Source of the DNA: Deltaproteobacteria bacterium | GTDB taxonomy: Bacteria; Myxococcota; JACPTQ01 | Length of the DNA stretch: 50,764 nucleotides | Assembly (NCBI GenBank): GCA_016192705.1 | Contig: JACPTQ010000087.1 | Span: 1 to 50,764, forward strand | Direction of reading: 5' to 3' | Part shown: positions 384 through 50,763 of the stretch, one piece after another | How the letters are laid out: the number at the start of each line of letters is the position of its first letter | Numbering within the stretch: the first letter of the stretch is position 1 | Made by a program: the position numbers and the translations under genes | Notes under the pieces: model-generated | The model's input: only the letters and a program-made list of their open reading frames with translations | Told to the model about the DNA's origin: nothing | Database searches by the model: none

Positions 384-637
384 ACCCCCAAGTCTCTCGA
401 CAGCCGTTCCAGGGCAACGGCTGATTTCTGGTTGCGCGGGCTGGGATTGGGCAAGCGGAGGCTCGCATCCTCAGGGGATGAGGTGCCGATGGGGCGTGGA
501 ATTGCCGTTCTCGTGATGTTTGATTGATCTCGTGCAGACTCACATTTAATGTCAGACCCGAGGACTTTTGCGAGCCGGAGCGAGCCCAGACCCCGCCCGC
601 CCCACCGCAATGTTGCCCGTTATCCGGGAATCAGGGA
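384..637 (+). repeat. Left copy of a ~254-bp repeat, inverted relative to the copy at the right end
   Basis: This stretch matches the reverse complement of 50510-50763 at roughly 85% identity by eye. Shared blocks include GATGAGGTGCCGATGGGGCG, ATTGCCGTTCTC, GTGCAGACTCACATTT and the run from ATGTCAGACCCGAGGAC through GGAGCGAGCCCAG. The repeat ends 15 bases before the proposed start of the fliO-like gene. The reading frame open in the right copy is broken by stops here, so it looks non-coding. No transposase or terminal direct repeats were seen. Confidence 0.85.
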
Positions 638-26640: not shown

Positions 26641-26684
26641 GCACCACAGAGGCACAGAAAACACAGAGGAAGACACAGAGAAGA
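26641..26684 (+). repeat. Copy 1 of a short dispersed purine-rich repeat
   Basis: The stretch has repeated CACAGAG words separated by 8-12 bases (CCACAGAGGCACAG, ACACAGAGGAAG, ACACAGAGAAGAG). It lies in the 68-base gap between two convergent genes. Related stretches are at 31041-31074 and 34081-34118. I recall such CACAGAG-rich words as dispersed repeats in some environmental genomes. Confidence 0.65.
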
Positions 26685-28287: not shown

Positions 28288-29667
28288 CTATCGCCGGCGG
28301 CGCATTTTGCGAACGACGAAGGTTTCTTGGTTCACGTCGAACGACTGGAGGGTCGACGCGATTTCGTAGCCACAAAAATGGCGACGTGCCGGCGAATCGG
28401 CACGGCGAAAATCGTCGTCCTCGATCAAATAAAACTCGTCGAGTTTTAGTTTTTGAAAGTCGCCACTGTACTGGTGCGAAACGAACGGCCGCTCGAGGAA
28501 TGCGAACCAGTCGTTAAAGCCACCGACGACGGTGAGGCTGTCACGCGGAATGGCCGCGCGGAGCATCGCGGTTTGGCGCGCGAAATCGACGTCGCGGTTC
28601 TTAACATAGAGGACGCCATATTGCGGGACGAGAAGGATGAAGCTCGCGAGCCACAGTCCTCGCGCGAGCCGGCGTGTATCGGCGACAACAATCGCAAGCA
28701 GTAAGAACGCCGGGTAGACGTAGATGGTGTAGTGGAAGTTTGGCCGGCCGAAGACGATGGAAAAGAGGATGAGAGAGCCGCAAAAGACCGCCGAAAGGGG
28801 CGCCCTGCGATGAAGCTTCCATTTGATGTAAAGGACCGCGCAAGCGAGAAAGAGCACGAGCTCGGGGATGTGGCGGTAGAATTTTGTTTGGAAGAAATAG
28901 TCGAAGAGAAAATTGCTCGGCCCGCCCGGGTTAATATCGGCGGTTGACGAGAAGACGACTTCGAAGGTCGCGAGGGCGTCGGAGTGCAGAGCGATGTAGA
29001 AAGCGGCGCCGGCAGCGAGGCCACCTGTCACCGAGGCGAGAGCGGTCGGCGTGAGGTTCGCCTTGATCGTCACGCGGTCGCGAAGAGCAAATGCAAGCAG
29101 GTAGATGAAGGAGACGACTCCAACCGGATGACTTTCAAAAGCAATTGCCGCTGCGATGAGGGCAAAGAAACGTTGCTCGACCACGATGAGGAGACTCGCG
29201 AGCGATATGAGAAGAAAGACGAACGCTTCGGGGCGCCCGCTCTGCGCAGCCGAGAAGAACGGCTCGTACAGCAGCATCAGAACGCCAAAGATCAGGGCGA
29301 ATTCGGGCTCGAACTTGAGTCGGCGCAAAAGGACGATCCAGAGCGCGACGGCGAGTAAAAGGAAGACCGTTGAAATGAGGTGCGCGGTCGTTTTGGTCCA
29401 GCCGAAAACGTCGAGGAGAGCGCCGACCACGCGAGCGTGGGATTTACCGAAATACCGAAGGCCGTACGGCGGCGACCGGCCAAACACCAAATCGTCGGGG
29501 CTGCCGCGCTTGAGATAGCTTTGGATGTACGAGAGCGACCAGGCGTCGTCGACGTTTCGCGGCCGGTATTTTCCGTGGAGCGCGACGTAGATTGTTGCTG
29601 TGCAGAGCAGGGAAAGGCCGAAGAACAGTTGGATTCGACGAGGAAACGCGCGAAAGGCGGATATCAC
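28288..29667 (-). CDS. GT-C-type polytopic membrane glycosyltransferase
   Basis: A 459-residue protein with about ten membrane helices. After the first helix comes RNVDDAWSLSYIQSYLKRG, where an acidic residue in the first loop is typical of GT39/83 (ArnT/PMT-like) enzymes that use polyprenyl-phosphate sugars. RPEAFVFLLISLASL and the FESHPVGVVSFIYLL helix also fit. A soluble C-terminal piece of ~100 residues follows. GTG at 29667 overlaps the upstream barrel gene's stop as GTGA and is preferred to a longer form. The acceptor is unknown; the GT2 enzyme next to it may make its donor. Confidence 0.78.
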   Translation of the reverse strand: MISAFRAFPRRIQLFFGLSLLCTATIYVALHGKYRPRNVDDAWSLSYIQSYLKRGSPDDLVFGRSPPYGLRYFGKSHARVVGALLDVFGWTKTTAHLISTVFLLLAVALWIVLLRRLKFEPEFALIFGVLMLLYEPFFSAAQSGRPEAFVFLLISLASLLIVVEQRFFALIAAAIAFESHPVGVVSFIYLLAFALRDRVTIKANLTPTALASVTGGLAAGAAFYIALHSDALATFEVVFSSTADINPGGPSNFLFDYFFQTKFYRHIPELVLFLACAVLYIKWKLHRRAPLSAVFCGSLILFSIVFGRPNFHYTIYVYPAFLLLAIVVADTRRLARGLWLASFILLVPQYGVLYVKNRDVDFARQTAMLRAAIPRDSLTVVGGFNDWFAFLERPFVSHQYSGDFQKLKLDEFYLIEDDDFRRADSPARRHFCGYEIASTLQSFDVNQETFVVRKMRRRR

Positions 29668-31088
29668 AAGTTGAGCTGGAGCTTGAGAAACGCGCGGCTC
29701 GGGCCCGTCGCGACTTGGCCGAATTTTGAGCTTGCGATGCCGCCGTACCAAAAGACGCCCGCGGTGAATTCGACGGGGCCGAACGGCTTCAGGATGAGCT
29801 GCGGAAAGATGATGTGGCTTCCGTCATCGATGTCGACGACGGCGAAGAGTTTTGCTTCGAGTTTGTCGCGCCATCCCTTGATAACGGCGCCCGCGACGAC
29901 GTAGTTGTCGAGCTGGCTCGCGCCGAACTCGTCGAAGAATCCGCGAACATACTGCGCATTCACGAGGAGCCAACGCGTAAAACTGTAATCGAGACCCGCG
30001 GTCACTTTGTAGAAAACGCCGGCGGTGTCCTGGATTCCCGTTGCGGTTGTTTTGCCGGACGGGAGGACGAAACCAGGCGAGATGTCGGTCTTGAGCGTGT
30101 CGTGGATCACCGCGGCGACCTCGCCCCAGATGCCGACTTCGATTCCGGGAATCTGCCCGGACACGTCAAGGCCGACAACCTGCTTGCGCGGATACTCAAG
30201 CCCGAGCGCGATGGGGACCGTCGAGCCCTGCGCGCTGCCCGCGCTGGACGATACGCCGCGCGGAACGTGGTCGAACCCAATGAAGTATGACGCCGACCAG
30301 TCGAACGACAACATCTTCCACGCCATTCGAAAGGCGCCCATCGAGTTCTTGAGCGATGTTTCTGGAATGGCGACGGTCGACGTGAACGCGTAGCTGAAGA
30401 GACCCGAAACGGCGCTTTGCGCGGCGATGAGCGCGGCGACGTCGGGGTCGGTCGTGTTGCGGATGGCGCGGGCGAAGGCGTTCGCGTCGGTGAATGCCGC
30501 GGAGGCCGATGTCGGAAGGAGCGAGCCGCGAAAGACCGGGACCCAGACGGCGGTCAGCGTGAGATCCTTCCGCGGCGTCCAATCGGCGCGAACCATTTGG
30601 TTTCCCATCGATTCGGCGAAGAGAAGCGGGTCTTCGAAGTCTTTGGGGTTCAAGTTGGACGTGGGATTGAACGTGTCGGCGGTTCCCCAATTGATAACTT
30701 GGCGGCCGACGCGGAGGTCGAGCCCCTTCGCAACGTCTCGGATTTCGATGAAGGCGCTGTTCGAGTCAAAGCGAAACGGGTCGAGCAGAGACTTGTCGGA
30801 CAGCGCCGGGAGCGACAGCGCCGACTGAAAGCCGCGATAACGAAACTTGACGTCGGCCTCGAGCGTCGCTTTTTTGTATGTTGCTGTCGCCTTTAAATAC
30901 GCGGCATTGTCGTTTCGGTCGAGCATCCACGCGGCCGTCTCGTTTGGTTTGCCGGGCAGGTCGACGTGGATGTCGGTTGAGACGTGGCCGGAGAGTTTGA
31001 GCTCGAGGCCAGCGTGGGAGGCGAAGGAAAAGAGAAGAGAAACCACAGAGACAGTGAGGCACAGAGGTCGGAGGAGAAGAGGCGTCAC
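29664..31088 (-). CDS. Outer-membrane beta-barrel protein, DUF1302-like
   Basis: A 474-residue protein with a signal peptide ending near FASHA, then alternating beta strands throughout and a C-terminal aromatic/hydrophobic strand (AFLKLQLNL). Phrases such as LDLRVGRQVINWGTADTFNP followed by NPKDFEDPL match DUF1302 outer-membrane proteins. These usually sit beside a LolA-like protein and an RND/MMPL exporter. The LolA-like gene is directly upstream with a GTGA overlap, but no exporter is present. The signal peptide is encoded within the dispersed repeat at 31041-31074. Confidence 0.82.
   Translation of the reverse strand: MTPLLLRPLCLTVSVVSLLFSFASHAGLELKLSGHVSTDIHVDLPGKPNETAAWMLDRNDNAAYLKATATYKKATLEADVKFRYRGFQSALSLPALSDKSLLDPFRFDSNSAFIEIRDVAKGLDLRVGRQVINWGTADTFNPTSNLNPKDFEDPLLFAESMGNQMVRADWTPRKDLTLTAVWVPVFRGSLLPTSASAAFTDANAFARAIRNTTDPDVAALIAAQSAVSGLFSYAFTSTVAIPETSLKNSMGAFRMAWKMLSFDWSASYFIGFDHVPRGVSSSAGSAQGSTVPIALGLEYPRKQVVGLDVSGQIPGIEVGIWGEVAAVIHDTLKTDISPGFVLPSGKTTATGIQDTAGVFYKVTAGLDYSFTRWLLVNAQYVRGFFDEFGASQLDNYVVAGAVIKGWRDKLEAKLFAVVDIDDGSHIIFPQLILKPFGPVEFTAGVFWYGGIASSKFGQVATGPSRAFLKLQLNL
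31041..31074 (+). repeat. Copy 2 of the dispersed repeat, inside the barrel gene's signal-peptide region
   Basis: The plus strand reads AACCACAGAGACAGTGAGGC then ACAGAGGTCGGAGG, flanked by purine-rich DNA on both sides. It aligns closely with the complement of 34081-34118, sharing GAGAAACCAC, GAGACA and TCGGAGGAG. The gene reads the other strand, giving LCLTVSVVS, part of a functional-looking signal peptide. Confidence 0.75.
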
Positions 31089-31810
31089 GGCTCGACCCGC
31101 TCGAGGGAACGGCGCGAGAAGAGGTTGTCGCCGAGGCCTTGATTGACCTTGAGGTCGACCACCGTCAAATGCGTGGAATGCCCCGACGCCGCGTCGGTCA
31201 TCGATATCTGCGTTTGCGTCGTGACTCCATCGATTTGCGTAAGTCCGCCGCGCGTCTCTGTTTTCTTAAGGCGGCCTTCGGTGTCGTAATACTCAATCTT
31301 CGATGAGAGACGCGTCTTAGGGTCGAGCCAGACTTTCATGGTTCGCCTGTGTGTGTTTCGCCGCTTTCGGCCGGTCAGCGCGAGAACAATTCTTCCGTCG
31401 TCATCGTCGACGCGTTTCGCCGTCCAATCGGATGCCCAGCGCACCGCCGCCATCTCGTCGTACGTAAAATCGCTCCCCATAAACGTCGCGTTCCGCGCGT
31501 GCATCGCGATGCGCCGCACCTTTTTGAACGCCGGCAAGTAGACGTACATTGTCGCCGAGTCCTCGATGACGACGCTCATGCCACGCACATCCGCCGGCGC
31601 GAGGAACGTCACACGTCGCTTCACGCCGCCCTTCTGCCACACGCGAAGCTCTCGCTCGTCCTCGCGCCCATCGGCCTCTCGCACGATCATCTTGATGCGA
31701 AACGTCTGGTCCGCAAAAGGGTTGTTCGCCGCGTCAGCCTTCTTCAAGAGCGCGTCGCCCTCGGCATTCCCAAGTATCGAAGCTCCCAAAATAAACGTTG
31801 TCACCAGCAT
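31085..31810 (-). CDS. Periplasmic LolA-like outer-membrane lipoprotein-sorting protein
   Basis: A 241-residue protein of the COG2834-type LolA-like family. A short signal (MLVTTFILGASILG) is followed by GDALLKKADAANNPF, KMIVREADGREDERELRVWQ, MYVYLPAFKKVRRIAMHARN, then FMGSDFTYDEMA. These are the family's hallmarks. Members often serve a neighbouring RND/MMPL exporter. The start at 31810 has AAGGAG seven bases upstream, so the much longer open frame is not used. Its stop overlaps the barrel gene start, making the two products likely partners. Confidence 0.88.
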   Translation of the reverse strand: MLVTTFILGASILGNAEGDALLKKADAANNPFADQTFRIKMIVREADGREDERELRVWQKGGVKRRVTFLAPADVRGMSVVIEDSATMYVYLPAFKKVRRIAMHARNATFMGSDFTYDEMAAVRWASDWTAKRVDDDDGRIVLALTGRKRRNTHRRTMKVWLDPKTRLSSKIEYYDTEGRLKKTETRGGLTQIDGVTTQTQISMTDAASGHSTHLTVVDLKVNQGLGDNLFSRRSLERVEP

Positions 31811-33190: not shown

Positions 33191-34633
33191 CTAGTCTCGC
33201 GTTCGAAAGTGGAGGCGAACGGGACACCCTTGGAGCGAAAGCGCGTCCCGAAGGCGATTTTCAATGTAGCGCCGATAGTTGTCGGGGACTTTCTCCTGGG
33301 TGTTCGTTGCAACGACAAACGTCGGCGGCGCCGCGCGGGCCTGGGTGATGTAGAGAATTTTCATGAGCTTGCCTCGAATTGTCGGCGGCGGCTTTTCGAC
33401 GACGAGTCGTTCGAGCGTGCGATTGAGGTCGCGCGTCGGGACGCGCTTTGTGTAGTTCGCGTAGACGCTGTCGACAAGCGGCAAGAGGCGGTCGACGCCA
33501 GAACCGGTGGTGGCCGTTACGAAGACTGTGGGCGTCTCTGGCAAGAAGTGGAGGCAGCGAGCGATCTCCGCGACCGCGGCGCGTTTCGAAATCTTCTCTT
33601 TCACCGCGAGGTCCCACTTATTGAGGACGACAACGAGCGCCCTCCCCTTGTCGCGCACGGTGCCCGCGAGTTTCGCGTCTTGATCGCTCGGCGTCCCCGA
33701 CGCATCGACGACGAGCACGCTGACATCCGCGCGCTCAATCGCCTTGAGCGCAAGGGCGACGCTGTAGTGCTCGACGCGCTCTTTGATGCGCGCTTTCTGG
33801 CGAATCCCGGCCGTGTCGATAAACGTGTACGTCTTTCCGGCGATTTCGACGGTCGAATCGATCGCGTCGCGCGTCGTGCCGGCCAAATCCGATGTGATGT
33901 GCCGCTCCTCCCCCAGCAACCGATTGACGAGGGTCGACTTTCCAACGTTCGGCTTTCCGATCACCGCAATCCGCGGAATGCGGGATTCCGCAAGGGGCGC
34001 GGATTTTAACGCCAAGGCGCCAGGTCGCAAAGCACCCCCCGCCGGGCTTTTTTCTTTCGCCCCCTTCTCTTCCTCCTCCGATCTCAGCGTCTCAGTGTCT
34101 CCGTGGTTTCTCCTTTCATTCCCCTTCTGTTCTAGCAACGCATCGAGCAAATCCGCGACGCCGCGCCCGTGCAGTGCCGATATGGGATAAATTGGCTCGA
34201 CCCCAAGCCGCGCAAAATCGTGGAGCCGCGCTTCGTGAACACCCTCGTCGACTTTGTTCGCCGCGACAAACACCGGGACCTGTGCGCGACGCAAGAACTG
34301 CCATGCGTCGAGATCCGACGCGAGAAGACCCTCGGACGAATCGACCACAAAAACGATCGCGTCGGCTTCAGCGATGGCGGTTTCCGTTTGATCGCGGATC
34401 GACGAAATCAGGGTGTCGTTCGACGCATCGTACCCGCCTGTGTCGACGATGCGAAAGCGATGGCCCACCCAATCGAATGCCGCGTAGTGACGATCCCGCG
34501 TGACACCCGGCGAATCTTCGACGAGCGCTTTTCGCGAACCGACGAGCCGATTGAACAACGTCGATTTCCCAACGTTGGGGCGACCCACAACGGCAACGAG
34601 CGGCAGCGCCGAACCCGCGTCACGCTTCGCCAT
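33191..34633 (-). CDS. der: GTPase Der with a repeat-encoded linker
   Basis: A 480-residue double GTPase needed for maturation of the large ribosomal subunit. G-domain 1 has GRPNVGKST (17-25), DTGG and NKVD; G-domain 2 has GKPNVGKST (226-234), DTAG and NKWD; a KH-like domain ends the protein. The linker between the G-domains is unusual: residues ~171-214 (QKGNERRNHGDTETLRSEEE...) are low-complexity and match the dispersed repeat at DNA level. Typical Der proteins have a short acidic linker there. ATG at 34633 overlaps the era gene by 14 bases. Confidence 0.95.
   Translation of the reverse strand: MAKRDAGSALPLVAVVGRPNVGKSTLFNRLVGSRKALVEDSPGVTRDRHYAAFDWVGHRFRIVDTGGYDASNDTLISSIRDQTETAIAEADAIVFVVDSSEGLLASDLDAWQFLRRAQVPVFVAANKVDEGVHEARLHDFARLGVEPIYPISALHGRGVADLLDALLEQKGNERRNHGDTETLRSEEEEKGAKEKSPAGGALRPGALALKSAPLAESRIPRIAVIGKPNVGKSTLVNRLLGEERHITSDLAGTTRDAIDSTVEIAGKTYTFIDTAGIRQKARIKERVEHYSVALALKAIERADVSVLVVDASGTPSDQDAKLAGTVRDKGRALVVVLNKWDLAVKEKISKRAAVAEIARCLHFLPETPTVFVTATTGSGVDRLLPLVDSVYANYTKRVPTRDLNRTLERLVVEKPPPTIRGKLMKILYITQARAAPPTFVVATNTQEKVPDNYRRYIENRLRDALSLQGCPVRLHFRTRD
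33991..34123. repeat. Repeat-derived insert within der (includes copy 3 of the dispersed repeat)
   Basis: At 34081-34118 the complement reads GAGAAACCACGGAGACACTG then AGACGCTGAGATCGGAGG, closely matching copy 2. Next to it, at 34007-34034, AACGCCAAGGCGCCAGGTCG with CAAAGC resembles another dispersed word type. Together they encode the Der inter-domain linker in frame. A GC-rich stretch followed by a T-run (34038-34053) sits between them. Confidence 0.7.
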
Positions 34634-35549
34634 CGGCGTCTCCAATTCCGAGGTCGCGCATCGCGCCTTCATCGTCGCGCCAGTTTTCACGAACCTTCAC
34701 GGTGAGTCCCAGAAAAACATGGTGCGCCAAAAGTTTTTCGATTTCGTGCCGCGCCGCCTCACCGATCCGGCGCAGCATCTGCCCGCGACGACCGATGATG
34801 ATCCCCTTTTGCGAATCGCGTTCGACAAAAATCGAGCACTCGATTCTCACCAGTTTCTTCGCGTCAGCCTCTTGAAAGGACTGCGTTCGCACGGCGACGG
34901 AGTAAGGCAGTTCGTCGCGCGTCGCGAGAATCACCTGTTCGCGCACAAGCTCCGAAACGAGAAAGCGTTCGGGGCGATCGGTGTAAGCGTCGTCGGGATA
35001 AAGTTGTTGTCCGACCGGGAGGAGCGCCGCCGCTTCAGCGAGAAGCCCGTCGAGTCCATCGCCCTTCGTCGCCGACGTTGGGACGATCGCCGCGAACGGA
35101 TGCCGTTCCTTCATCACGCTGATCCAATCGAGGAGCGCGTCGCGCCGTTTCAAGAGGTCGATCTTATTGAGCACCAGGATGGCCGGCTTCTTTGCACGAA
35201 CCACGGCATCGAGCACGGCGACTTCGTGCCGTTGCAATCTCGGCGTTTCAAACCGCACCGCCATCACGAACAAAACGGCATCCGCGCTGTCGAGCACGCC
35301 AAACGTTGTTCGCGTCAGCGTCTTTGCGAGCGGCTCGCGCTCAATTCGCACCCCCGGCGTATCTATAAATACAATCTGCGCGTTAGGCACCGTCTTGACG
35401 CCGAGAATGCGATTCCGCGTCGTTTGTGGCTTTGGCGCGACGATCGCCACCTTTTCGCCAACAAGCGCATTGATGAGCGTCGACTTTCCGACGTTCGGCT
35501 CACCGACGATCGCCACAAACCCAGACCGGTATTCCGCCGCGCTCGACAC
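34620..35549 (-). CDS. era: GTPase Era
   Basis: A 309-residue GTPase that binds the 3' end of 16S rRNA during small-subunit assembly. The G1 motif is GEPNVGKSTLINAL (16-29), G2 TTRNRILG, G3 DTPG, and G4 NKID. The C-terminal KH domain has the RNA-binding IIGRRGQMLRRIGEAAR. Length matches the family. GTG at 35549 is the only sensible start before MSSAAEYRSGFVAIVG. The der gene begins inside its last 14 bases; both GTPases then lead into yihY. Confidence 0.97.
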   Translation of the reverse strand: MSSAAEYRSGFVAIVGEPNVGKSTLINALVGEKVAIVAPKPQTTRNRILGVKTVPNAQIVFIDTPGVRIEREPLAKTLTRTTFGVLDSADAVLFVMAVRFETPRLQRHEVAVLDAVVRAKKPAILVLNKIDLLKRRDALLDWISVMKERHPFAAIVPTSATKGDGLDGLLAEAAALLPVGQQLYPDDAYTDRPERFLVSELVREQVILATRDELPYSVAVRTQSFQEADAKKLVRIECSIFVERDSQKGIIIGRRGQMLRRIGEAARHEIEKLLAHHVFLGLTVKVRENWRDDEGAMRDLGIGDADGEA

Positions 35550-47400: not shown

Positions 47401-50373
47401 ATCCGCGCCGTCGTATCGATTCGACGTGGCGCCGCCCGTGTCGCGCACCGTGTACGTGACTCTCGAGCGCGCGTCGTACTCCGTCCGCTCGGAAACTTTT
47501 TGGTCGCCCGGCGTGAGCGGGCCGTCCGTGAGCGCAGCCGCCCGCGCAAGCGAAATTCCCGTCGGCAAAAAGAGTTCGCGATCGACTTGGATGCGCCGAC
47601 CCAGCTCGTCGAAAAGGAAGTTCGTCCGCGCGAGGGAGGTTTGCGCGCCACCGACGACGGCGTTCCCCTTGACCTCGACCTTGATCGCACGGCCGTCGGG
47701 GTCGAGCGTCAGCTCCGTGCGCGTCCCCACACGATCGATGCGCGCCTTGACGCGATCGAACCCATCGAACTCGCTCGTCCATGTGTGACTTCCGACGGCG
47801 TCGGTCGCCACCGTGAGGTTCCCGTTTAGGTCGTAGGTGTAGGTTATCGTCGATGCGCTCCCCCCTTGCCCGCCGCGGGTCGACGACGTCATCAGGTTCC
47901 GCGTGTCGAACGCATAGAGTCGAACATTGTCCGTCTGCGTCCCCGCGACCGCGAGCGGGCTCTCGTTGCGCGTCAGATTCCCGTTGGCGTCGTATCGAAA
48001 GCGCTCGGTCAGCGTCTCGGGCTCGGCCGACGCGGGGGACGCTGGGTCGCGCGTTGCGTCGTTCGTCTTTTCGACCGGCTGGTTCAAAATGTCGTACGTC
48101 GTCGTGTTTCTAAAGAATTCGCGGGACGAGACGACAAGCGGAAGGTGCGTCGTCGGGCTCGTCGTCACGTTTTGGACCGACACCGCCTTTCGATTGTTGT
48201 TTGCGTCGTATTCAAAGTGGCGGAGGAACCCGCGCGCCTGCGAGCCATCGATCTTCGGCGCCTCCTCCTCGACGATCTGATCAAGCGCGTTGAAAAACAT
48301 CTTCTGCACGTTGCCCCTGGCGTCCGTTAACGTCTTCACGTTCCCGCGCGCGTCGTAAAGGTACTCTGTCGAAAGCGCGAGCGCCGCCCCCGGGTCTATG
48401 CGGTTCGCGCCGAGCGTGGCATCGACGATTCGCTGTTTGAGATAGCCGCCCGTCGTTCCGTTTCGGCCCGCGCGAATATCTAAGCCGTCGCCGTCCGGAT
48501 CCGATTCGGGGTGGTATGCGAACGTCGTGATGTTTCCGCGCTCGTTCTCGATCTGCGTCGGTTGCGCAAACGCGTTAAACCGCGTCGTCGTCACGATCGC
48601 CTGCTGCGTTGTCCCTTCGGCGATCGCCTGCTTCGTCCCCGCGACGAGCGTCACCGTCGGGCGCGCCGTGCGCACAACGTTTCCCATCGTCTGATTCGTT
48701 GCGCCATCGCCGTTCACGTCGCCCTTCGACAAGATCGCGCCCGGAACCGTGATGCCCCAGTCGGTCGCCTCGGCGGGTGTCGTCGCCGCCTCCTGATAAT
48801 CGTATGTGTAGGTCGTTGTGTAGCGCGCCGCCGATTGGCTCCCGCCGTTTTGCGGAATGTACGACGCGTCGTTGCCGCGCGGAGAGACCACCGTGAGCAG
48901 CTGGTTGAAAAGCGGCTCGTAAGTATATGTGGAGCGGATCTGCGTCTGCGCGCCGCCGCGCGTCTGATCCGGCACCTTCGTCCGCGTGAGAAGATTGCCG
49001 CGTTGAAAGCGGTCCGCGTTGGCGTCGTCGTAGGTTGAGTCGGTGCGGTTCCCGAGCGGATAGACGACCGACGTTTGGAGCCCGTCGGCGTTGTAAGTGC
49101 GATCGGTCGTAAAGGCGCCACCCGATGGGTCGACGACCGTGCGAAGCGCCTGCCCCGTCGCGTTGTGGTACGTCACGATCGTGTTGCCGCGGCGGTCGAC
49201 GACGGTCGTTTTCGACGTGGTCCCCGCCGGGCCGCCGCTCGGCGCGAAGTCGTAAGCGACGCTGAGGCTGCCGCCCGCCGCGACGCCGCTCGCATTGGTG
49301 CCGCCGACGGTTTGCGCGGTGACGCGGTCGAATGCGACGCCCGATGTACCGTACGTCGTCTGGAGATAGGCGGTGGTTGAAGCGACGGCGACTTCGTTCG
49401 GCGCGACGATCGCGGTCAAGTTGTGTACGAGTTTCGGGTCGGACGAGCCGGTCGCGTATTGGTACTGCTCGGTTTTGCCGCTCGGGAAGTCGTTCCCCGC
49501 GTCGGGAGCCCCAGTCGCGACGGGCGATCGCGCCGCGGTGAGGTGATCTAAAACATCGTAAGTGAAGTCGACGACGCGGCCTGAAAAATCGGTAATGGTG
49601 TCGAGGCGGCCGCTGCCTGTGTAGGCGAGCGTGATCGGTCGGCCCATCTCGTCATCGATTCGCGTGAGCTGGCTCCCGGTGTAGACGTAGGTGTGGAGGT
49701 CGCCGGTGCGGTGCCGGACTTGGGTGAGGCGCCCCGACGTCAAGTCAAACGTAAAAACCGTTCCGTTCGACTTTCGAAGTTCGAAGGCGCTTCCGGTCTT
49801 TCGGAGTTTCGTGAAGTGGCCGGTGGGCGATGTGAAGGCGCCGCCGCCCGTCGCAACGTAGCGGTCGCTTCTCCCGGTGCCGTCGTGGAAGAGCACGTCG
49901 CCGCTTCCCGAAAGTTCCTCGACGCGTCGAAAGACGTTCGCGTCCCAGCCGTAGCCGAGCGGCCCCAGTTGATCGTTGAAGCTGCGGTACGTGCGGACGA
50001 ATGAAAAGCCGAGGCTTCGCGCTTTGATCGCCATGTCAGTGCGCACGACGCGAAGCTCGCCGCTGTGAAGGAGCACGCCGCCCGGGTTGTCGTTCGCCGA
50101 TTGGCCGAGGCTTGGGCTTCGCGCCGGCTCTTGAAGGTACGGGCCTGCGTCTGCACCCGCTCCCGCATCCGCCCCCACGCCCGCATCCGCTCCCGCATCC
50201 GCTACCGCTCCCGCGTCCGCTCCTGCATCCGCTCCCGCGTCCGCATCCGCTACCGCCCCCGCATCGGCTTCGGTCCCCGCATCAGCGCCCGGCGACGTTG
50301 GTTTTGCACAGCCAAAAACAACGCACAAAACGCCCAACCGCCAACCGGCCAATAGATCTCGATATGCCTTCAC
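44461..50373 (-). CDS. RHS/YD-repeat lipoprotein with variable C-terminal domain
   Basis: A 1970-residue protein. The N-terminal signal ends in a lipobox (LCVVFGC). A ~50-residue Ala/Asp/Gly linker (ADAGADAGAVADAGADAG) follows, then a DUF6531-like start (LRVVRTDMAIKARSLGFSF) and many YD repeats (TYDALGRVTQITRADGKTVT and similar) up to the core end SRDPIGTWGDPANF...NRRDPLGL near residue 1742. The last ~227 residues are a cysteine-bearing C-terminal domain, the place where RHS toxins sit; it is not recognised. GTG at 50373 (MKAYRDLL...) has a GGACGGGG site; TTG at 50388 is possible. Confidence 0.92.
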   Translation of the reverse strand: MKAYRDLLAGWRLGVLCVVFGCAKPTSPGADAGTEADAGAVADADAGADAGADAGAVADAGADAGVGADAGAGADAGPYLQEPARSPSLGQSANDNPGGVLLHSGELRVVRTDMAIKARSLGFSFVRTYRSFNDQLGPLGYGWDANVFRRVEELSGSGDVLFHDGTGRSDRYVATGGGAFTSPTGHFTKLRKTGSAFELRKSNGTVFTFDLTSGRLTQVRHRTGDLHTYVYTGSQLTRIDDEMGRPITLAYTGSGRLDTITDFSGRVVDFTYDVLDHLTAARSPVATGAPDAGNDFPSGKTEQYQYATGSSDPKLVHNLTAIVAPNEVAVASTTAYLQTTYGTSGVAFDRVTAQTVGGTNASGVAAGGSLSVAYDFAPSGGPAGTTSKTTVVDRRGNTIVTYHNATGQALRTVVDPSGGAFTTDRTYNADGLQTSVVYPLGNRTDSTYDDANADRFQRGNLLTRTKVPDQTRGGAQTQIRSTYTYEPLFNQLLTVVSPRGNDASYIPQNGGSQSAARYTTTYTYDYQEAATTPAEATDWGITVPGAILSKGDVNGDGATNQTMGNVVRTARPTVTLVAGTKQAIAEGTTQQAIVTTTRFNAFAQPTQIENERGNITTFAYHPESDPDGDGLDIRAGRNGTTGGYLKQRIVDATLGANRIDPGAALALSTEYLYDARGNVKTLTDARGNVQKMFFNALDQIVEEEAPKIDGSQARGFLRHFEYDANNNRKAVSVQNVTTSPTTHLPLVVSSREFFRNTTTYDILNQPVEKTNDATRDPASPASAEPETLTERFRYDANGNLTRNESPLAVAGTQTDNVRLYAFDTRNLMTSSTRGGQGGSASTITYTYDLNGNLTVATDAVGSHTWTSEFDGFDRVKARIDRVGTRTELTLDPDGRAIKVEVKGNAVVGGAQTSLARTNFLFDELGRRIQVDRELFLPTGISLARAAALTDGPLTPGDQKVSERTEYDARSRVTYTVRDTGGATSNRYDGADRMIDQTLPISGIHPDGGAIASSGTTFTFDPNGNVTGDVAQHLADAGSGAQILTTTKVYDALNRLRRVADPGGHTEYFDLDSRGNLVSKYDARGPVLADGGNDRGNAIRYRYDGLGRLWTEVHELTTTGESDAGLDVTAFNPDGLITLVTEWDPNSQVVKKKDDNGNTTALTYDALGRVTQITRADGKTVTRTYNADDDVVTETNEDGTTLTMTYDGEGRRTRRDVTSTSGRTVAAGIAMFVGTTVQTWAYDGRSHVIQSTDNNDPADVNDDWTVVSKYDSLGRLAEQLQNGRAVTNGYVSTMRSEVFYPNFVAPDGGRVVHFTYNAMDQMFRFANTATVTVTDDTSGTICPPPNTNRDIGGFFHSSTTRIISEGRDVISTNHGSYGQAAVDSLSRGHQATGFNELQFNSPTVEVNLYSASYDSAGRIKAQNSQRSSSAVFDGGSQSFTGSTNVTSAYDGAQNRRTQTITPGGTQLNAPGPANEPEFDGGIDHDGDNDAGGAAGSGDRSRDPGFLYQWDVFHRLRALLSTTQEDGGYVVYARYNYDSELSPIPTGRRIQKVVQNRGVLDSMRRFYWDDTNMIEETVLPDAGAVEVTNRQYIFGKQPNDVQVMHADIDGGGTLNRIFFLFKDFNNNTTQLVESNGTPAEFYKYDDKGSPTILHPQSLMPRSYENANLDDRPIGNPWLFMGHHFDHESRLASNAGHIYMKARFYDTTFGVFMSRDPIGTWGDPANFGNPYTLTGNDPLNRRDPLGLDGEGPGGAGSDQAAKVKQAEADTERYRQTDSSGLIGFVVAGKNVAGNPTPNETWIQKNILRPLGQAGSACLANLKHTNVYHDGKRVMEGRGVRGENTPFQSQDYEWVVRLYKVNVGWLRWGRCPIPCSEAADADILACLNASPGYKQEYSVTSANCQQDVEKAIAGCCLRGYSGVSPVSADSAYGDKAKEAAIDQEIAKQEADALKATEDNLLKTLQAMNADRASR
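50150..50290. repeat. Low-complexity tandem repeat in the RHS linker
   Basis: Degenerate 6- and 12-base units of the form GC[AG]TCCGCTCCC recur about 20 times. They encode the Ala/Asp/Gly linker of the RHS lipoprotein. Slippage in such DNA could change linker length without shifting frame, since the units are multiples of three. Confidence 0.75.
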
Positions 50374-50509: not shown

Positions 50510-50763
50510 CCCCTGATTCCCGGACAACGGGCAACAATTGCGCGGGGCGGGCGGGGGCTGGGCTCGCTCCGGCTCGCAAAAGTCCTCGGGTCTGACATGA
50601 AATGTGAGTCTGCACGAAACGAATCAAACATCATGAGAACGGCAATTCCACGCCCCATCGGCACCTCATCCCCTGCGGATGCGACCCGAAGCAAGCCCAA
50701 TTCCCGCCCGCCGAACCAGAACCCGGCCGTTTTCCTGAAACGGCGGCTAAGGGACTTGGGGGT
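50510..50763 (-). repeat. Right copy of the ~254-bp repeat, reaching the window end
   Basis: This is the inverted counterpart of 384-637. The end carrying GGGAATCAGGG faces the RHS gene, just as the same end faces fliO on the left, so each repeat has the same orientation relative to its downstream gene. The match continues to the last bases, so the repeat may extend past the window. If the window is a contig, this repeat could be why assembly stopped. Confidence 0.85.

Follow-up and report, generated by a model that had tools for sequence, protein, structure and literature searches.

How does the signal peptide of an exported protein come to be written in a repeat that is scattered over the rest of the genome? 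The question is raised by the gene of an outer-membrane beta barrel on contig JACPTQ010000087.1 of a deltaproteobacterium (Myxococcota; assembly GCA_016192705.1), whose full length of 50,764 nucleotides is called the window below. Signal peptides change quickly in evolution, and the usual view is that they drift in place. A sequence-only reading of the window had proposed that the barrel's signal peptide is encoded by a repeat that gives a hydrophilic linker when read the other way in the gene for Der, and that new signal peptides might arise along this route. The homology was borne out; as to its meaning, the repeat very probably took over the hydrophobic h-region of signal peptides that exported proteins already possessed, the opposite orientation being kept elsewhere.

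The barrel is encoded by a minus-strand open reading frame (ORF; 31088-29664) with a GTG start, and the translated precursor reads MTPLLLRPLCLTVSVVSLLFSFASHA|GLELKLSGHVSTDIHV; its first part, (GTG)MTPLLLRPLCLTVSVVSLLFSFASHA at 31088-31011, is followed directly by GLELKLSG. As judged by rule, MTPLLLRPLCLTVSVVSLLFSFASHA|G agrees with a substrate of Sec and signal peptidase I (SPase I), with Arg7, an 8-mer of Kyte–Doolittle (KD) value 2.67, and S-H-A at positions -3 to -1, and the N-terminus is predicted to be a Sec signal peptide of SPase I type. The protein matches DUF1302 (PF06980) with 28.9 bits at a cut-off of 23.2. The AlphaFold model, made with 19 homologues from the phylum, is beta-rich, its first long strand begins at residue 28, and its best matches among solved structures are those of the AlgE outer-membrane barrel. 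The GTG start overlaps the TGA of the upstream LolA_like gene, and this pair, an operon, is conserved in most phylum loci examined by tblastn. A scan of genome contigs with the barrel protein as query found no relative. It could be argued that the repeat copies are merely intergenic, that translation starts downstream of them, and that the signal-peptide reading is an artefact of open CT-rich frames. In the barrel gene, however, the next in-frame ATG is located about 28 residues into the mature protein, and a start there would remove the first strand and leave no signal peptide.

The DNA of this predicted signal peptide is a copy of a dispersed repeat, as the sequence-only reading had claimed. 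BLAST of 31005-31100 against the organism's own genome gave 45 matches, the best other copy with 90% over 60 nt, and the 18-nt core, with up to 3 mismatches, occurs three times in the window against 0.01 expected by chance. The barrel copy was also recovered by an nhmmer profile built from 31 copies (Table 1). The consensus of the purine-rich, or sense, strand is about GAAGAGAAGAGAAACCACAGAGACACTGAGNCACAGAGATCGGAGGAGAAGAA, and its core CTCTGTGGTTTCTC is nearly invariant among copies. A weak third match to the core, with 3 mismatches, lies at 26642-26659 and is missed by the profile. Within the barrel signal peptide, the repeat covers residues ~4-22, whereas the ASHA cleavage motif and the start codon lie just outside; the repeat thus encodes the hydrophobic core as had been proposed (n- and h-region), and the SHA site, which had been counted as part of it, does not belong to it. 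Leu, Ser, and Phe codons give signal peptides a similar composition, and independent drift toward CT-rich, repeat-like sequence might be considered. Such convergence is hardly credible, since what is matched is one particular stretch of 56 nt that linker and intergenic copies share, at E-values as low as 1e-12; these E-values and the hairpin copies described below refute it.

The genome was sampled by stretches amounting to 1.34 Mb, in which five other contigs were covered completely or almost completely, and 118 copies were found with nhmmer; 110-150 are estimated for the 5.2-Mb genome. The repeat is a dispersed short repeat resembling a miniature inverted-repeat transposable element (MITE), with many copies arranged as inverted pairs (on contigs C24, C47, C52, C58, C65, C79, C80, and C82). 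The window's own copy folds into no stable hairpin and is a single arm. Contig C65 (60 kb) is a hot spot: it has 10 copies, against a density of ~28 per Mb on the remaining fully read contigs, and three repeat-derived lipoprotein signals. Many sense copies (e.g., L004, L008, L028) are followed by GCGGGTGCGGGAGCGG tails, and a tandem CCCGCATCCGCT array with a period of 6-18 nt at window 50144-50287 looks similar; the array and the tailed repeat may belong to a single longer mosaic element. No Y1_Tnp (PF01797)/RAYT transposase was found in the genome (96.65% complete; positive controls worked), an Rfam search with the repeat gave no match, and a literature search for its sequence found no paper or named family.

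Comparison with orthologues, which the sequence-only reading had called for, bears on the age of the signal peptide. In the fuller matches, homology to the barrel starts at query residue 28-30, right after the predicted signal peptide, and the DUF1302 barrel orthologues of the phylum carry signal peptides unrelated to the repeat. The repeat was not found in 194 other genomes of the phylum. Because the orthologues have unrelated signal peptides and these genomes lack the repeat, the barrel's signal peptide appears to be repeat-derived in this lineage, and export to be older. The BamA orthologues in 16 phylum genomes likewise have other N-termini, mostly resembling signal peptides and none related to the repeat. 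The converse history, in which the signal peptides are inherited and one of them gave rise to the repeat family, draws on the fact that for a single copy the direction is not fixed by sequence alone. It is very unlikely: the distant orthologues in repeat-free genomes do not support common ancestry, the genes concerned belong to mostly unrelated families, and in many phyla the repeat core forms intergenic hairpins with no signal-peptide use seen. The exact core is present in Planctomycetota, Acidobacteria, Chloroflexi, Nitrospirae, Spirochaetes, Cyanobacteria, Alphaproteobacteria, and others, and the copies there (Planctomycetes UBA4800, Thermoflexia, Phycisphaerae, Spirochaetes, and others) are mostly intergenic and often hairpins; among ~105 of them, with rough gene models, no signal-peptide use was seen. 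The core AGAAACCACAGAGNCACNGAG is identical in distant bacterial phyla (L206-L285), often within intergenic hairpins.

The barrel is one of many cases. A survey of all copies, in line with a check also proposed in the sequence-only reading, found 25 genes that read the antisense strand in frame as their N-terminus, so that the predicted h-region is the repeat (Table 1). The proteins downstream belong mostly to envelope families (Omp85/BamA, secretin, FadL twice, ZnuA, BatD, DsbD, SCPU, 5'-nucleotidase, cytochrome c, PilP/PilO). A few residues including the start codon often precede the repeat, and directly after it, in frame, there is typically a c-region or lipobox (SPLARA, SGSASA, SSPARA, SSSSLA, LLLSSC, MVSAC, LSC). 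No signal-peptide copy has a stop in the frame used, and in 19 of 25 genes neither of the other two frames is as hydrophobic (p=1.6e-5). Copies in the SLWFLL register are more hydrophobic than copies in the same register outside signal peptides (p=6e-4); in the larger SVVSLL class the excess is marginal (p=0.05). These data return to the downstream-start explanation, which gains from CT-rich DNA being mostly open and hydrophobic in all frames, and from the genes for HemW, GcvP, a sigma54 activator, and a DUF58 protein, whose true start is probably within or after the copy. It is nevertheless improbable for the set as a whole, as the BamA, PilQ, FadL, and ZnuA families need a signal peptide and none is present after the repeat, and as the repeat leads in frame into cleavage motifs and lipobox cysteines.

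Five genes (BamA, the PilQ-like secretin, C65:38275, C65:40377, and C82:3069) begin with an inverted pair whose two arms are both predicted to be translated: a charged n-region (MKKRRVTTETQS..., MKTGETTKTQS...) comes from the sense arm, and the h-region from the antisense arm. The BamA leader folds with -71.7 kcal/mol (z=-6.6), and this modelled hairpin might affect translation. Two near-identical hairpin copies stand 572 bp apart upstream of the PilQ-like gene (L161, C47:33047-33726), which suggests a recent local duplication.

Orientation separates the uses of the repeat. When contexts were assigned with a hexamer coding model that had been trained on the genome itself, ~40 copies came out as sense within ORFs, 3 as antisense within ORFs, and ~30 as antisense at gene 5' ends in operons, the remainder being mostly sense between co-oriented genes. 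Inside genes, 39 sense copies stand against 3 antisense (p=6e-9), and the sense reading is of the hydrophilic EKRNHRDTE type, as in Der, where the copy forms the linker between the two GTPase domains and is opposite, relative to its gene, to the barrel copy. The claim that one family yields a hydrophilic linker one way and a predicted export signal the other is upheld, and recurs in ~25 genes. Unpaired 5' copies precede 19 exported and 3 other products when antisense, against 8 and 27 when sense (Fisher p=3e-6). Sense copies directly upstream of genes carry a Shine-Dalgarno-like GGAGGAG, e.g., before GroEL ('...ggtaggaggagaagaaagaaATG') and ribosomal protein L35 ('...ataggaggagaaagagtaATG'); the motif is present in 11 of the 17 sense copies within 40 nt of a start, compared with 26% of all predicted genes.

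The order of events, the translation of the copies, and their signal-peptide function we infer as follows. A short repeat, often in palindromic pairs, would have spread through the genome. Its pyrimidine-rich strand has many Phe, Leu, Ser, and Val codons whichever frame is read, and so encodes a hydrophobic segment. Where a copy landed antisense at the start of a gene whose product was exported already, its translation would have become the h-region, and often the n-region, flanked by the former start codon and the former c-region or lipobox. The flanks, as read from the genes, fit a repeat that was inserted into the n/h part of an existing signal peptide or that converted it. Selection would have retained these copies, given that any core of sufficient hydrophobicity is tolerated in a signal peptide; elsewhere, copies would be retained in the hydrophilic orientation within genes, or just upstream of genes with GGAGG as ribosome-binding site. 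Since export is older than the repeat, this is remodelling of existing signal peptides and not the creation of export, and the proposed route to new signal peptides does not hold as worded: BamA, PilQ, FadL, ZnuA, DUF1302, and other families were exported before the repeat arrived, and their signal peptides were remodelled or replaced. The antisense 5' copies of HemW, GcvP, the sigma54 activator, and the DUF58 protein were considered as cytosolic proteins gaining export and were rejected, as these genes appear to start within or after the repeat; no convincing gain was found among the surveyed copies. It is likely, though with somewhat less assurance than the takeover itself, that the dispersed palindromic repeat has donated signal-peptide cores time and again and that its strands are coding-compatible in opposite ways, one as a hydrophobic export signal and the other as a hydrophilic linker or a ribosome-binding site, with the signal peptides of ~25 genes including BamA rewritten and hairpins encoding a full n- plus h-region.

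Several points weigh against this reading. The function of the repeat N-termini is a prediction from sequence, and some frames (LCGFSS) give weaker h-regions. The nearest comparison genomes are from other families of the same phylum. The exported/cytosolic split and the start codons were assigned by hand, partly circularly, with the signal peptide itself one criterion; for most genes with a Pfam match, the split is backed independently by the Pfam label. A home-made, crude signal-peptide predictor was positive for 42% of 1088 predicted genes, too permissive, and was not used as a background rate.

Table 1. Location of the barrel locus, the window's repeat copies, and repeat-bearing genes elsewhere in the genome
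Feature	Location	Strand	Basis
Predicted signal peptide MTPLLLRPLCLTVSVVSLLFSFASHA	31011..31088	-	Translation; orthologue homology from residue 28-30; first long predicted strand at residue 28
Mature DUF1302-like outer-membrane beta barrel, AlgE-like fold	29664..31010	-	Pfam PF06980 E=7.7e-7; AlphaFold pLDDT 77.8; AlgE PDB matches E=7e-14
LolA_like (PF17131) gene, upstream of barrel	31085..31810	-	Pfam E=3.4e-38; tblastn of phylum loci
Dispersed ~60-bp repeat copy	31024..31079	+ (purine-rich sense strand; CT-rich strand codes here)	nhmmer E=7.3e-13, 47.5 bits; BLAST family
Second window copy, sense, within Der (33191-34690 -)	34069..34122	-	nhmmer 41.9 bits; Pfam of Der
Sense copies with Shine-Dalgarno-like motif, among others	L113 (C62:127515), L144 (C58:89540)		
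Repeat-coded signal peptides, lipoprotein-type (12)	C10:64104, C10:102543, C19:32331, C4:62858, C43:175097, C45:57007, C65:38275, C65:40377, C65:51060, C82:3069, C82:10292, C9:112839		
Repeat-coded signal peptides, SPase-I-type (13)	C24:16712, C30:39390 (FadL), C4:37190 (ZnuA), C47:33047 (PilQ-like secretin), C51:15908 (M20), C52:12579 (BatD), C58:54812, C80:14543 (BamA: Omp85 + five POTRA), C81:7917, C82:7587 (FadL-like), C84 window gene, C86:50603 (DsbD), C45:10879 (SCPU)		

Apart from the repeat, a 253-nt inverted repeat, 87% complementary, is located at both contig ends (window 384-636 and 50511-50763).

The bamA gene is essential elsewhere. A repeat family that overwrites signal peptides repeatedly, that of bamA included, would be a concrete mechanism for their turnover, and its copies offer a natural experiment on the minimum of sequence specificity required for export. 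Depending on its strand and position, one and the same repeat is tolerated in three roles, coding or regulatory. For gene-calling pipelines there is also a warning that repeat-like N-termini can be real.

Like REP/BIME and other MITE-like repeats, the present one is short, dispersed, found in inverted pairs, and in many copies placed between operon genes; unlike REP/BIME, it comes with no detected Y1_Tnp/RAYT transposase and no Rfam match, and coding use predominates. Rickettsia palindromic elements, so far as they are described where the original report is cited, are in-frame inserts in conserved proteins (Ogata et al., 2000, cited in PMC2229807). On that description, they are similar in being palindromic repeats in frame in conserved genes, here Der, and differ in host and in that a major class here supplies an exported N-terminus. 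The closest precedent is the Yersinia RU-2/YPAL MITE, which forms part of the predicted signal peptide of YPO1552, the signal peptides of orthologues being unrelated (Delihas, 2007, PMC2759123; Delihas, 2008, PMC2229807); the present repeat was not found in this Yersinia literature. Both systems have a predicted repeat-derived signal peptide and orthologues with signal peptides unrelated to the repeat. In Yersinia, however, one main gene of unknown function is concerned, whereas here there are ~25, many of them core envelope genes (BamA, PilQ, FadL), with lipoprotein and SPase-I types, sorting by orientation, and hairpins giving n- plus h-region. An event of this kind is thus known from Yersinia. 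What appears to be new in the literature searched is how many genes are affected, that core envelope genes are among them, that copies are sorted by orientation, and that hairpins give bipartite signal peptides.
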